Below are positions 20,998 through 35,201 of a stretch of DNA of 35,201 bases, piece after piece; the first letter of the stretch is position 1, and the number at the start of each line of letters is the position of its first letter. The notes beneath the pieces were generated by a model. It was not told the origin of the DNA. It worked only from the letters and a program-made list of their open reading frames with translations, and searched no databases. The stretch is from a virus, in IMG/VR virus record IMGVR_UViG_3300028840_003472, positions 1 through 35,201 of that record. One strand, given 5' to 3'. The translations under genes were made by a program, and so were the position numbers.

Positions 20998-21038
20998 AGC
21001 GAGTACTAGAGAAAAGGAACCGAAAACTAGTACTCGCT
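20998..21038. repeat. 12-bp inverted repeat spanning the terminase stop codon
   Basis: Perfect arms AGCGAGTACTAG (20998-21009) and CTAGTACTCGCT (21027-21038) with a 17-nt loop. The 5' arm of the minus-strand RNA holds the last codons and stop of the large terminase; the 3' arm ends 19 bases before the nuclease GTG. No T-run follows, so it may be a processing or translation-control hairpin rather than a terminator. Confidence 0.7.
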
Positions 21039-24000
21039 GTCCCTAAAAATAGGAGGAAGGTTAGTATTGGAACCGTACATTATTTCTTTACACTTTTTAT
21101 CAAATTCTTCTGGAGATCTTTCATTGGAATCAATATAAGACAATGACTGGCATACATAGCGTAGACAATCACAATGATCATTAGTCCAATCTACTTTATC
21201 TTTATTTATAAATCGCTTTGTAACTGGATCCCACTTTCTTGAATAGGCTTCAAGAGCATCAAGAAGCAAGCTACAATTCTTTTCATCAAAAAATATTCTC
21301 TTAAACGAATGCTTAACCACTTCGATACCATCATTGAGAAATGTCCTATCGAGAACGGTTATCTTTAAACCAAGCTGCTCCAAAATTTGCAATCTGGTTT
21401 CACCACTACCAAGCTCATGCTTCTTAGCATCATGAGGAAAGAAATGATTGCCGTATACATAGCCTTTTGACTCAGAATATGAGCGCAACAGACTCACATA
21501 ATGTGATAAGTCTTGATTAGATTTATGGTAATGATCTATTACACAAATTTTACGACCTATAACCTGATAAAAGATTATAACAGAAGGACTGTGATAGCCT
21601 AGATCCCAAGCAGTATAGACTTCATGAGAAGAATCATGTGGCACATATCCAATACGTCTATCTGCATAAGCCTGTTGAACATACTTTGCATAATATGCAC
21701 CAGTATTGGCAACTTCAAAGCTGCAGTTATGGACTGCTCTACCATTTGCAATATAACTCTCATCGTATTGAACTTTTAAGTTATATACATTTCCATCATA
21801 ATCAAAGCTTCTAACATTTTTAACAAGGGCTGCTATGCAATTTTTTGCGCGTAATAGATTACTTTTAAATCTAGGTTTCAGATATCCAATATTTACGCAA
21901 TATGATTCTTTACATTTAACGATTCTGCCTTCAATTATTGAAGTTGTGGATCGTCTTCTTGTAATTCCAGCAGCATATCCAAGATTTAGACTATTAGCTA
22001 ATAATTGTACTTGGTAGGCAAGTTGCTTGCTTGTTGTAGTATAACAAAATTTTTTATATCCATTGTGTACAGAGAAACAACCATCACCTTCAATTAATTC
22101 GTGAAAGAAGCTTTTCTCATGACCAATAATTAATGTCATTGGAATATGCTTATTATAAGATATTGATCCACAATTTGACTTAAAGAAATCCACTAGATAT
22201 ACACTATTTACAGTAATAGTTATCGCAGTTTCACCTCTCTGGATTTTATAACTATATCCAAGAGATTTAAGTAGATCAATAACTCTAGATTTTTCATTTT
22301 CATTACCAACTGTAAATTGTAGACCATTTTTAAAGCTACTTCCTTCAGTTATATACCAAGCCATTAACATACAAAGATTGTAGGATATCACACTTTCGTT
22401 AGATATATTTCTTTTTGGAAATACAACCCTATCACCATATTTTATATTAGCAGCAGGGACCCAGCTATATGACTGAGTAGATTGATTATAAATTTGAATT
22501 GGATGATTTGGTGTACAGATTATATTTTCATATGAACCATATGAACTAATTTCAATCATCTTACCAGTATAAGGTCTATCTATTACACCAAGTACTCTTC
22601 TAAATCTGCCAGAATGTGACACGACAATATCATCAGCCTGGATCTGATTAATCATAGTAACACCATTTGGTGTTAATATTCCTGTATTAGCAGGAAAGCA
22701 AAAATATTCCTGAAGAAATAACTCATCAGACATTCTTCCTTTTTCTTTAGCTAATACTTTCTCACTAACATGCTTAGTTTCATCAATAGTTAGAATCTTG
22801 GCGTACCATTCTTCATCATCACCAGAAGTTGCATATTTATATACATTATAGAATTCATTGTGACCATTAGGAGTGGAAATAAATACTACCCAACCACTAT
22901 TGGCTGCTAGAATTGGGGCTACAACACCATTATACGCGTCAGGATGATTAACACGACTATACTCAGAAAATACCACCCCAACAGGATTTGTGCCACGAAG
23001 TGAGTTTCCGGACCAACATTCTTTTCCATTACGTCTTACCTTTATTACCCCAGATGGAACTGTTATACAATATACGTTGCCACAATAATCTTCCATCTGA
23101 ATATAGTTGGCTTTGCTCGAGCAAAATCGCTTAAATTTAGACTTTCTAACCCTTATAGAATATAGATCATGATTGCTAATTATTTCTCTACCGCGTATCA
23201 AACCGCCAGAACTTCCAGCCTTAGACTTAATCTTTACATACCCGCTATAGCCAATCTTTAATATAAGCTCCTGAACATCATCAATAAGTTGCTTTGAGCA
23301 TGAATAATAATATATGGAGCCATTCTTATGTATAGTTCCATCACCAAGTACAAGCCAAGTAAATAACTCTTCTAGATATATCTTGTCATATTTAAGAACA
23401 TCTCTCGGAATAAATCTATCAGGCTGCTTTCCAAATTGAGAAAAATAATTATACATGTCTTTACTGTAGAACACATATCTATCATCTCTCTTGCTATACT
23501 TAATTCCACATCGATCTAATAATTCTTCAATCTTTGCTCTAGTGTGAAATTTCTTTTGTGCTATAGAAACCTCATAACCTTCTGATTGTCTATAAGACGA
23601 AGACCCTTCCGACAAGTATATACCAAGCAAAGCCATATAATCCATCATAGATATGGTTATATCTGTACCAGGAAATGTAAATGAACTTTGCTTCTTGCCT
23701 TTCCAGTCACACATAGACGGAATTGAATAATATTTAATAGTAGGATCAGATATTCTTTTAAACTTATAAGCACCCTTAGGAGATTTAACATAGAATTTAT
23801 GATTTGGGGTGACCAACATATCCATAGCTTTGTTCTTAATAGAATACATAGGTCCAGAATAAGATTGCTTAATATAATCAAGTGGCTTTTCGTAAACCAT
23901 ACAACCATCTTTAAGCGTTGCTACTTTTATATTCTCGAACTTTCTGTCTATAAGTTCTTGGAATAACATCCAGCCATTATCGGTCAAAATTTCTGTTTCG

Positions 24001-24371
24001 GCATCATAGCAATCTGCATTATCGGCTCCGTTAAATTGTATTATGCTGCCATTTACAAGAACAATTTTCATTTCTACGTTATTTTTTTTGGCGATTAATC
24101 TAGCAGGTATAAAGTCTAAAAATCTTTCGCCTGTGCTTAAAATTGAGTCCCATACTGCACGACGACATTGATCATATTTTGGATAGAGATAGTAATATAC
24201 CCCGACACGCTTAAAAGCTTGCCTTAGCATTAGGTTAAGAGCAGCAACATCTTTACCTGCACGTCGAGGCCATACAATCACAAATTTCTTTTTGCCTTCA
24301 TACTCTAAAGCATTTATTAAGTCACGTTGGTACCAACGTGGCTCAAATGTATCGACTTTTACTTCTTGCAT
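21027..24371 (-). CDS. Terminase large subunit interrupted by two inteins (1114 aa precursor, 453 aa mature)
   Basis: ATP-driven DNA packaging motor with nuclease. The extein parts show Walker A WPRRAGKD (34-41), a Walker B-like VGVVFSEYS (464-472), the STPNG coupling motif (499-503), and nuclease acidic residues in AWDLGYHS (Asp923), FPHDAKK (Asp981) and DWTNDHCDC (Asp1066/1068). Residues 121-456 and 558-882 are inteins; removing them joins NGADNAD to SLRG and QEYF to CSFEV, both typical terminase sequence, leaving 453 residues, a normal size. Translation start overlaps the end of the upstream membrane-protein gene by 13 bases, with no strong ribosome site, so it is probably coupled. Packaging mode is not certain; the circular assembly suits headful packaging. 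Confidence 0.92.
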   Translation of the reverse strand: MQEVKVDTFEPRWYQRDLINALEYEGKKKFVIVWPRRAGKDVAALNLMLRQAFKRVGVYYYLYPKYDQCRRAVWDSILSTGERFLDFIPARLIAKKNNVEMKIVLVNGSIIQFNGADNADCYDAETEILTDNGWMLFQELIDRKFENIKVATLKDGCMVYEKPLDYIKQSYSGPMYSIKNKAMDMLVTPNHKFYVKSPKGAYKFKRISDPTIKYYSIPSMCDWKGKKQSSFTFPGTDITISMMDYMALLGIYLSEGSSSYRQSEGYEVSIAQKKFHTRAKIEELLDRCGIKYSKRDDRYVFYSKDMYNYFSQFGKQPDRFIPRDVLKYDKIYLEELFTWLVLGDGTIHKNGSIYYYSCSKQLIDDVQELILKIGYSGYVKIKSKAGSSGGLIRGREIISNHDLYSIRVRKSKFKRFCSSKANYIQMEDYCGNVYCITVPSGVIKVRRNGKECWSGNSLRGTNPVGVVFSEYSRVNHPDAYNGVVAPILAANSGWVVFISTPNGHNEFYNVYKYATSGDDEEWYAKILTIDETKHVSEKVLAKEKGRMSDELFLQEYFCFPANTGILTPNGVTMINQIQADDIVVSHSGRFRRVLGVIDRPYTGKMIEISSYGSYENIICTPNHPIQIYNQSTQSYSWVPAANIKYGDRVVFPKRNISNESVISYNLCMLMAWYITEGSSFKNGLQFTVGNENEKSRVIDLLKSLGYSYKIQRGETAITITVNSVYLVDFFKSNCGSISYNKHIPMTLIIGHEKSFFHELIEGDGCFSVHNGYKKFCYTTTSKQLAYQVQLLANSLNLGYAAGITRRRSTTSIIEGRIVKCKESYCVNIGYLKPRFKSNLLRAKNCIAALVKNVRSFDYDGNVYNLKVQYDESYIANGRAVHNCSFEVANTGAYYAKYVQQAYADRRIGYVPHDSSHEVYTAWDLGYHSPSVIIFYQVIGRKICVIDHYHKSNQDLSHYVSLLRSYSESKGYVYGNHFFPHDAKKHELGSGETRLQILEQLGLKITVLDRTFLNDGIEVVKHSFKRIFFDEKNCSLLLDALEAYSRKWDPVTKRFINKDKVDWTNDHCDCLRYVCQSLSYIDSNERSPEEFDKKCKEIMYGSNTNLPPIFRDSEY
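21726..22700 (-). other. Intein 2 of the large terminase (325 aa) with LAGLIDADG-type endonuclease
   Basis: Residues 558-882. Starts at Cys558 (CFPANTGILTPNGV, splicing block A), block B is IICTPNHPIQIY (618-628), the two dodecapeptide endonuclease motifs are LMAWYITEGSS (669-679) and FHELIEGDGCFS (756-767), and it ends RAVHN with Cys883 as the next extein residue. All canonical splicing residues (Cys1, TxxH, penultimate His, Asn, Cys+1) are present, so splicing is expected. Acidic residues at the ends of the endonuclease motifs (Glu676, Asp763) are retained, so homing activity is plausible. Confidence 0.9.
23004..24011 (-). other. Intein 1 of the large terminase (336 aa) with LAGLIDADG-type endonuclease
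   Basis: Residues 121-456. Begins CYDAETEILTDNGW (block A), block B is MLVTPNHKFYV (185-195), endonuclease motifs are ALLGIYLSEGSS (247-258) and FTWLVLGDGTIH (337-348), and the end is ECWSGN followed by Ser457. It interrupts the ATPase a few residues before Walker B. The residue before the last Asn is Gly, not the usual His, so splicing may be slower or use a variant mechanism. The joined sequence NGADNADSLRG is what an uninterrupted terminase would have. Confidence 0.9.
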
Positions 24372-33674: not shown

Positions 33675-34016
33675 CTATACTTTATAACCTATTGAAACAA
33701 TTATATCACCACTTGTTGGAGCATCTCCGGGAGTATATCTTTTTGCATAAAATGTAGTTCCCTTTGATATAGATATCCCATTAGTAGCATCGTCAATTAG
33801 TAAATTGCCGCCGGCTACTATAGCGAAATGATTATTTGTTCCATCAAGACTGATCCAGGCATCTTTATTTGTAGTATTATTAATAATAAATATTCTCGTA
33901 GGATGATCTATTGGAGTGCCAATTGCAGAGTACGCATCAACTATTGCACCAAATGCTTTCGTACGTGCTGTTTCGAACCATCCTCGCTTAGGTGCCAGAG
34001 CAATATATCCACTCAT
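33675..34016 (-). CDS. Small beta-rich virion protein (113 aa)
   Basis: Its ATG overlaps the previous stop. After KRGWFETARTKAFG it has strands RIFIINNTTNKDAWISLDG, HFAIVAGGNLLIDD and FYAKRYTPGDAPTSGDIIVS, a jelly-roll-like pattern common among phage neck and fibre accessory proteins. Lies between the DUF6496-like gene and the YadA-like fibre. Likely a fibre-attachment or collar protein; inference by pattern and place. Confidence 0.6.
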   Translation of the reverse strand: MSGYIALAPKRGWFETARTKAFGAIVDAYSAIGTPIDHPTRIFIINNTTNKDAWISLDGTNNHFAIVAGGNLLIDDATNGISISKGTTFYAKRYTPGDAPTSGDIIVSIGYKV

Positions 34017-34255
34017 TATTTACCCTTCTTTTTTTTAGACTTTTTTACAGATTTCTTAACAGATCCACGCTTTGCTGCTTTTGATGCTTCACTCAAAGCT
34101 ATTGCCAATGCTTGCTTTTTATTTTTAACTTTCTTCTTGCTTTTTCCAATATTGAGTTCACCAGCTTTTGCTTCTTTTAATACTATCTCCATTTTCTTTT
34201 TAAATATTTTCTTTTTCTTCCCTTTTTTAGGAACTTTGATCTTTTTCTTGGCCAT
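34016..34255 (-). CDS. Lys-rich DUF6496-like basic protein (79 aa)
   Basis: Very basic, with long Lys runs at both ends and a conserved-looking core KKKVKNKKQALAIALSEASK (about 40-59), which matches the small DUF6496-type proteins (KxVxNxKQAxAIALSEA) found in phages and bacteria. A DNA-compacting or packaging-related role is possible but unproven. Its ribosome site and start lie in the 3' arm of a perfect 15-bp inverted repeat (34245-34305), so translation may be controlled. Confidence 0.65.
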   Translation of the reverse strand: MAKKKIKVPKKGKKKKIFKKKMEIVLKEAKAGELNIGKSKKKVKNKKQALAIALSEASKAAKRGSVKKSVKKSKKKKGK

Positions 34256-34305
34256 ATTATTCCTTCAAATATAACGTTATATCTAAAGAGTAATATGGCC
34301 AAGAA
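34245..34305 (-). promoter_or_regulatory. Inverted repeat covering the start of the basic-protein gene
   Basis: Perfect 15-bp arms (34245-34259 and 34291-34305) with a 14-bp palindrome ATATAACGTTATAT (34269-34282) at the centre. In the minus-strand RNA the 3' arm contains the ATG and first codons. The layout resembles that at the HNH gene. The 5' arm holds TATTAC but no good -35 was found. Confidence 0.7.
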
Positions 34306-34318
34306 TTTTTAAGAAATA

Positions 34319-34951
34319 TTATTTTACATGGCGCCAGGTATTTCCATATTTTATATTGTATATGGTACTACTTCCAACGCCAAAATCTCTTGCTATTTTA
34401 GTTGCCATTACTCCTAATTTTAAAAGCTGCTTTATTTTTTTTACTTGCTTTCGCGTAAGAACAGCTTTATTATGATCTTCTTCTTTTGGTTGATTGCCTC
34501 TTCCTTTAGACTCTTTATCTAGTACATTATCATGATTCGTACCTAAAAAAAGATGTGATGGGCATGTACATCGAGGATTATCGCAGCGGTGCAACACATG
34601 CATTCCTTTTGGAATTTCACCTTTATGTATTATCCATGAAATTCTATGGGCTTTCATAGATTTTGGCTTATATCTACCGCCAATTTTGATTTCAAAATAC
34701 CCAGTACTACTGATAGTACCTTTAAATTCCCAACATCCATCTTGCCTAATTACTCTACGCTCAAACAATTCTTTCATACGTTGGAATTTTTCTTGTTCAG
34801 TAGCATTCTTCCAAAAATCATTCCAACCATAATGACAATCATGACATGTATTTGTAACATATTTTGTAAGCTTTCTTCGATTCTTATAACTATGTGTAAA
34901 TTTATCTAACTCGAATTTTCTGTTACACTTCTTACATATTTTTGTGTCCAT
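34319..34951 (-). CDS. HNH endonuclease, probable homing type (210 aa)
   Basis: Free-standing site-specific endonuclease that likely spreads its own gene. Cys6/Cys9 and Cys36/Cys39 form an N-terminal zinc site. The HNH domain (about 73-145) has CWEFKGTISSTGYFEI, KAHRISWIIHKGEIP, HVLHRCDNPRCTCPSHLFLG and NHDNVL, with His118/His121 and Asn139/Asn142 as candidate catalytic or metal residues. The C-terminal 45 residues (TRKQVKKIKQLL; ATKIARDFGVGSSTIYNIK) form a helix-turn-helix for target binding. It sits between a fibre gene and the basic-protein gene, with a perfect-consensus promoter and an inverted repeat over its start, as expected for a mobile gene whose expression is limited. Confidence 0.85.
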   Translation of the reverse strand: MDTKICKKCNRKFELDKFTHSYKNRRKLTKYVTNTCHDCHYGWNDFWKNATEQEKFQRMKELFERRVIRQDGCWEFKGTISSTGYFEIKIGGRYKPKSMKAHRISWIIHKGEIPKGMHVLHRCDNPRCTCPSHLFLGTNHDNVLDKESKGRGNQPKEEDHNKAVLTRKQVKKIKQLLKLGVMATKIARDFGVGSSTIYNIKYGNTWRHVK

Positions 34952-35000
34952 ATAATACTCCTATAAAAATTAATAATATCTTCAAGAGTATTATATGGAC
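34946..35000 (-). promoter_or_regulatory. Inverted repeat over the HNH ribosome site and start
   Basis: Perfect 15-bp arms GTCCATATAATACTC (34946-34960) and GAGTATTATATGGAC (34986-35000). In RNA read through from the fibre gene, the GGAG ribosome site and ATG would be paired. The other arm contains the -10 box of the promoter at 34990-35018, so RNA started there lacks that arm and leaves the ribosome site free. Confidence 0.8.
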
Positions 35001-35018
35001 ATTCTTTTTATATGTCAA
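34990..35018 (-). promoter_or_regulatory. Perfect-consensus promoter before the HNH gene
   Basis: On the minus strand TTGACA (35013-35018), 17-bp spacer, TATAAT (34990-34995). Start expected near 34983, giving a leader of about 32 nt. It also reads into the basic-protein and fibre genes downstream. Confidence 0.8.
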
Positions 35019-35049: not shown

Positions 35050-35201
35050 TTAGGCAGCTATTATCCAGAAGGTAACGATGATGTCTCCGTTTAATGCTAC
35101 GCCTCCATTATTTTGCAAATCTAGTGTAAATGATCCTGCTGCCGGTTTCACTCTTTCTAAAGACATTAAAGCTGCATTTGTTCCAACATTACTTACAGTT
35201 G
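35050..35201 (-). CDS. 3' end of the tail-fibre gene (second copy of the overlap)
   Basis: Same frame as the fibre gene at 1-2947, seen again through the terminal overlap. It provides the stop TAA at 35050-35052 after FWIIAA, completing the gene on the circle. Not an extra gene. Confidence 0.9.
   Translation of the reverse strand, partial: TVSNVGTNAALMSLERVKPAAGSFTLDLQNNGGVALNGDIIVTFWIIAA
35058..35201. repeat. Right copy of 144-bp terminal overlap
   Basis: Identical to 1-144; shows that the contig closes into a circle. Confidence 0.95.

Follow-up and report, generated by a model that had tools for sequence, protein, structure and literature searches.

A shared arrangement of promoter and hairpin is listed for the T4 genes I-TevI, I-TevII, I-TevIII and segB and for mobE of phage Aeh1 (PMC2988022). 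The internal promoters of the T4 genes are of the late or middle class, and earlier RNA is blocked by the hairpin (PMC2988022). The T4 late genes e, soc and 49 follow the same logic of two transcripts (PMC3014915), and in IS200 a leader stem-loop that buries the ribosome site keeps the nuclease gene at a low level (PMC12594629).

Here we analyse the leader of an HNH endonuclease gene in the viral record IMGVR_UViG_3300028840_003472 (35,201 bases; hereafter the window, analysed whole unless stated). As for T4 I-TevI, I-TevII and I-TevIII, the long RNA is predicted to bury the ribosome site and RNA from an internal promoter, which would lack the 5′ arm, to be open to translation; we recomputed this for I-TevI. 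However, I-TevI has a phage late promoter, its early and middle RNA is blocked and it is an intron-encoded GIY-YIG enzyme, whereas the gene considered here is free-standing and has a promoter of host-type consensus. By its description, Aeh1 mobE is likewise a free-standing HNH homing endonuclease gene with a hairpin-sequestered ribosome site and a similar promoter arrangement, but it is inserted in nrdA of a T4-like Aeromonas phage and has T4-type regulation. T4 segB, e, soc and 49 share the two-transcript logic but use T4 late promoters, and the last three encode no mobile nuclease. IS200-type transposase genes are alike in that the nuclease gene of a mobile element is kept low by a ribosome-site stem-loop, and in IS10 and IS50, with host-type promoters, read-through RNA is blocked by leader stem-loops; in insertion sequences, unlike here, the arms belong to the element ends, and none such were seen at the HNH gene. 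A sequence-only reading of this DNA had already drawn the parallel with I-TevI, which our calculations bear out, and had also set the locus apart by its nuclease family. The latter distinction falls, since I-TevIII and Aeh1 mobE, for which the same arrangement is reported, are classed as HNH (PMC2988022, text and Table 1). At their annotated starts, T4 I-TevIII (annotated as defective) and T4 mobE show no such hairpin by the measure used below. We consider a hairpin-gated promoter with two-transcript logic the likely explanation of the HNH leader, and the mechanism that the sequence-only reading proposed is probably right.

The window begins and ends with an exact 144-bp repeat (1–144 = 35058–35201); the record is therefore circular or circularly permuted, and a fibre-like gene spans the contig ends (2–2947 plus 35050–35201). 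The HNH gene starts 98 nt downstream of the stop codon of this gene (35050–35052). Its product belongs to the HNH_3 family (PF13392, E = 6.6e-13, 48.5 bits against a cut-off of 24.8), and it is followed by a gene for a DUF6496 protein. Neither a sequence search of solved structures with the HNH protein nor a search of the phage collection with the DUF6496 protein returned a match; for a 113-aa neighbour, a short-peptide pattern search of viral contigs gave no relative, and relatives were obtained by genome search. Elsewhere in the window, an intein splicing domain and two LAGLIDADG stretches within the 1114-aa terminase ORF (21027–24371, minus strand) suggest the presence of two inteins.

Table. 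Coordinates of the features at and around the HNH gene
Feature	Position	Strand	Basis
Upstream fibre-like gene, 3′ end (remainder 2–2947)	35050..35201	(-)	ORF and 144-bp terminal repeat
-35 box TTGACA	35013..35018	(-)	12/12 consensus, 17-bp spacing
Hairpin 5′ arm (first in RNA), TGTCCATATAATACTC, whole -10 box inside	34986..35001	(-)	Sequence
-10 box TATAAT; predicted transcript start ~34983, from spacing	34990..34995	(-)	Consensus match
Shine-Dalgarno AGGAG, 6 nt before ATG	34958..34962	(-)	Read from sequence
Hairpin 3′ arm, GAGTATTATATGGACA, holds Shine-Dalgarno GAG and ATG	34945..34960	(-)	Sequence
HNH start codon ATG	34951-34949	(-)	Sequence
HNH_3 endonuclease gene, 210 aa, with C-terminal helix-turn-helix	34319..34951	(-)	PF13392 profile and PHROG HNH endonucleases
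Second hairpin, over DUF6496 ribosome site and ATG	34245..34305	(-)	15-bp perfect outer arms 34245-34259 / 34291-34305
Lys-rich DUF6496 protein, gene following HNH	34016..34255	(-)	PF20106, 26.2 bits vs cut-off 24

The start of the HNH gene lies within an inverted repeat with a 25-nt loop (on the plus strand, TGTCCATATAATACTC at 34945–34960 and GAGTATTATATGGACA at 34986–35001). The repeat is perfect, as first described, but 16 bp long rather than the 15 bp given at that time. Similarly, the ribosome site and start had been placed in the 3′ arm, which is correct for the ATG and the GAG but not for the whole Shine-Dalgarno sequence, only part of which is covered by the perfect arm; beyond the perfect repeat the stem continues with a G-U pair and another helix of 7 bp. 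The proposed TTGACA-17-TATAAT promoter, with its -10 box (34995–34990) wholly in the 5′ arm, is confirmed as a 12/12 consensus match, and it is the sole σ70-type site of that quality in the 20 kb scanned. The T4-type late motif TATAAATA is absent from the HNH leader, which has the σ70-like promoter in place of a T4-type late or middle one. We assume this σ70-like promoter to be host-type. Throughout the window, the only perfect repeats longer than 12 bp are this one and the 15-bp repeat at the DUF6496 gene, and the longest perfect repeat in 12 Markov shuffles of the window was 12 bp. Shuffling the leader 3000 times yielded no 16-bp stem (the maximum, 14 bp, arose once). An Rfam search of the window returned nothing at gathering score, the sub-threshold hits being chance microRNA-like stems. 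Separately, the exact arm GAGTATTATATGGACA was searched for in viral contigs and gave 14 matches, judged to be about the number expected by chance.

The computed cost of opening the HNH ribosome site is ~22–24 kcal/mol for RNAs with 5′ ends at or above 35000, and falls to 2.8 for a 5′ end at 34984, 5.1 at 34988 and 2.8 at 34980. The low cost in the short RNA is thus insensitive to the exact transcript start, and the contrast (~22–24 vs ~3 kcal/mol, computed) agrees with the earlier suggestion that read-through RNA hides the ribosome site and short RNA does not. When only the upstream sequence was shuffled, the cost was 5.7 ± 2.0 against 23.6 observed, and none of 150 shuffles reached the observed value. 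Folding z-scores follow the same pattern: the long RNA scores −6.5 and the RNA starting at 34983 scores +1.0. The same calculation on T4 I-TevI, used as a positive control, gave ~14.5 for the long and ~5 for the shortened RNA; by this measure the HNH hairpin would be the stronger switch. Among the 36 gene starts in the window, a ribosome-site hairpin is present at two only, HNH and DUF6496. As the fibre stop codon lies 48 nt before the base of the HNH hairpin, a fibre ribosome terminating there should not melt the stem.

Related phages were collected via their portal, capsid and fibre proteins. In these, G003, G005, G007 and L048 among them, the fibre gene is followed by the next gene with no HNH gene in between; the gene's absence from the relatives' site is the mark of a free-standing homing endonuclease used here. 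The four named phages have a terminator-like G+C-rich hairpin at the HNH-less site. No ribosome-site hairpin was found in the next-gene leaders of G007, L047, L048 and L051 (z −1.3 to 1.4). Alignment of G007 with the window begins at the HNH stop codon and continues past it (score 69 vs a shuffled maximum of 48), and the stretch from the fibre stop to the HNH start is unalignable between the two (score 25, equal to the shuffled mean of 25). The simplest reading of this one close comparison is that promoter, hairpin and HNH ORF form one unit that replaced the terminator region. The HNH gene is free-standing and probably a mobile endonuclease gene with its own expression cassette; a search for a close relative with the same HNH gene found none. 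The last codons of the window's HNH gene (34320–34333, minus strand; TGGCGCCATGTAAAA) include GGCGCCAT, 8 bases identical to the 3′ arm of the terminator-like hairpin after the G005 fibre gene; the match may be due to chance or may mark what is left of the insertion site.

The sequence-only reading had called for the same layout to be sought before HNH genes of related phages. HNH_3 genes were gathered from viral contigs by two alignments, and the layout was scored as an upstream -10-like hexamer whose predicted start lowers the opening cost by 8 kcal/mol or more. It precedes 14 of 129 non-redundant viral HNH genes and, among 118 other genes from these contigs, one (Fisher p = 6e-4). In these counts the HNH genes are partly non-independent, start codons followed a simple rule, only controls with a good ribosome site were kept and a promoter of the E. 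coli type was assumed throughout. All 14 fall among the 72 HNH genes with an upstream gap of at least 30 nt (0 of 57 in the remainder), and 19 permuted pairs of -10 and -35 motifs found 3.8 genes on average and never more than 7, against the 14 found with the real pair. In bacterial genomes the layout was present at 3 of 79 HNH genes vs none of 189 controls; one case is in Paraburkholderia kirstenboschensis (L217). Further cases, both in annotated phage records, are the uncultured podovirus MW202691 (GATTCCCGTATAATGTCGGG-CGCGT-CCCGCATTATACGGAGAATCTATG) and the cultured Rhizobium phage RHph_Y1_10, in which the opening cost drops from 25.4 to 3.8; for the leader of the latter, the relatives found were too few for comparison. 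Most HNH_3 genes do not have the layout. Stem sequences differ strongly between the cases that do, loop lengths vary widely and many stems are only ~9–15 bp.

The second hairpin of the window is as strong as that of the HNH gene, with an opening cost of 23.0 vs 6.2 ± 1.7 in shuffled sequence. A scan of its 5′ arm for a σ70-like promoter found none, so the DUF6496 hairpin would be present in transcripts from the HNH promoter too. The two hairpins are alike in 5′ arm and loop (2 of 1000 shuffles are as similar), and the relative G007 encodes DUF6496 without such a hairpin. The DUF6496 hairpin is possibly a processing site, a duplicate of the HNH leader or simply a repressing element. Promoter-in-hairpin logic leaves it unexplained, and this counts against our preferred explanation. 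It would fit a different switch, in which the HNH stem (17 + 7 bp) is an RNase III processing site and cutting frees the ribosome site in read-through RNA, the hairpin then activating the gene. Both window hairpins are near-continuous helices of ~24–27 bp, which is long enough for RNase III. However, the shorter stems of many recurrent cases are too short for typical cutting, and the -10 boxes within the 5′ arm are left unaccounted for; we regard RNase III activation as unlikely.

Compensatory change was assessed in one clade of HNH genes (L071, L102, L120 and L140; 61–69% protein identity to L071), which lie downstream of P22-type coat genes. In the four-gene stem, 97.5% of cells are paired and both sides have changed in 6 of 11 pairs. 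The covariation is 0.576 vs 0.290 ± 0.074 in shuffled and 0.06–0.17 in slid alignments, in a test that leans towards structure because it includes only four sequences and the aligned stretch was cut to the hairpin. Compensatory change alone cannot separate an RNA stem from a DNA dyad, and the arms do flank and include the -10 box, as would an operator bound by the helix-turn-helix of the nuclease or by a phage repressor; autorepression through an overlapping operator is reported for I-TevI, which represses its late promoter. Yet an operator needs neither a 3′ arm that always tracks the ribosome site and ATG, nor varied loops, nor G-U pairs in a conserved stem. These three features favour an RNA stem and make an operator in its place quite improbable, although operator action could occur in addition to the RNA hairpin.

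The long perfect repeats at two neighbouring genes, with their similar 5′ arms and loops, might also be thought functionless by-products of template switching that made near-perfect palindromes at both gene starts. Such an origin would not account for recurrence of the layout at HNH genes elsewhere, as opposed to control genes, for the coupling of hairpin to -10 box or for the compensatory changes in the related clade, and it seems to us very improbable. Finally, we give almost no credence to the repeat being mainly a 3′-end or antisense feature: on the plus strand each hairpin has a U-rich stretch after it that could end antisense RNA (TTCTTTTTAT after 35001 and TTTTT after 34305), but the window is AT-rich, the terminator scan listed neither site and there is no plus-strand gene nearby.

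Under the hairpin-gated promoter, read-through RNA from the fibre gene would carry both arms and its ribosome site and ATG would be buried, whereas RNA from the gene's own promoter, with a predicted start at ~34983, would lack the 5′ arm and leave the ribosome site open, as computed above. If such occlusion operates in the cell, the level of the nuclease would be set by a promoter for host RNA polymerase and insulated from the strong structural-gene transcript. We infer that the HNH gene would be expressed early in infection and silent once late structural RNA dominates, since a host-type promoter reverses the timing relative to T4 I-TevI. This timing reversal is the main new prediction; the sequence-only reading had noted the host-type promoter but neither the reversal nor the equally strong, promoterless hairpin of the DUF6496 gene. 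What is new here is a host-type promoter with opposite predicted timing, and the spread of the device beyond T4-like phages; a literature search, with subscription papers mostly outside it, found nothing on such hairpins with host-type promoters before free-standing HNH genes, which is weak evidence of novelty.

The recurrent cases examined mostly follow directly on a major head or fibre gene. Of ten proteins encoded upstream of layout genes, seven have matches among major head or tail fibre families, and the other three resemble, by eye, the repeat-rich fibre proteins of the window's group. Upstream of genes with a gap but no layout, 20 proteins comprised 6 head or fibre, 5 DNA-metabolism or other and 9 unmatched proteins; three of the six head or fibre cases (L149, L155 and L116, the last on the contig of L140) have ribosome-site hairpins nonetheless. 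A broader proposal, to which we give an even chance of being right, is that in many non-T4 phages the free-standing HNH genes have a portable cassette in common, a ribosome-site hairpin with a host-type promoter inside it. The cassette would allow the nuclease to lie behind the structural genes of strongest expression, active early and silent late (the reverse of T4), and would have arisen or been rebuilt repeatedly with unrelated stems. If true, this would reveal how selfish nuclease genes can occupy sites behind capsid and fibre genes and avoid over-expression, and a regulatory device described for T4-like phages would be extended to further groups of phages and to another class of promoter. 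The cultured RHph_Y1_10 would make the timing directly testable, and the layout would serve annotators as a sequence signature of free-standing HNH genes.

Other leaders were also observed among the HNH genes. Strong ribosome-site hairpins with no σ70-like -10 box precede the HNH genes of L251 (~1440–1477, a Zoogloea bin) and L288 (~1363–1435, an actinobacterial bin). In Vibrio phage 1.232.O (L053, 525–795), a group I intron (RF00028) extends from the end of the annotated capsid gene and lies before the HNH gene, which may be intron-associated. In Shewanella phage ZP9 (L303, 860–929), an int-alpA RNA (RF02996) lies directly 5′ of a gene matching the HNH protein.
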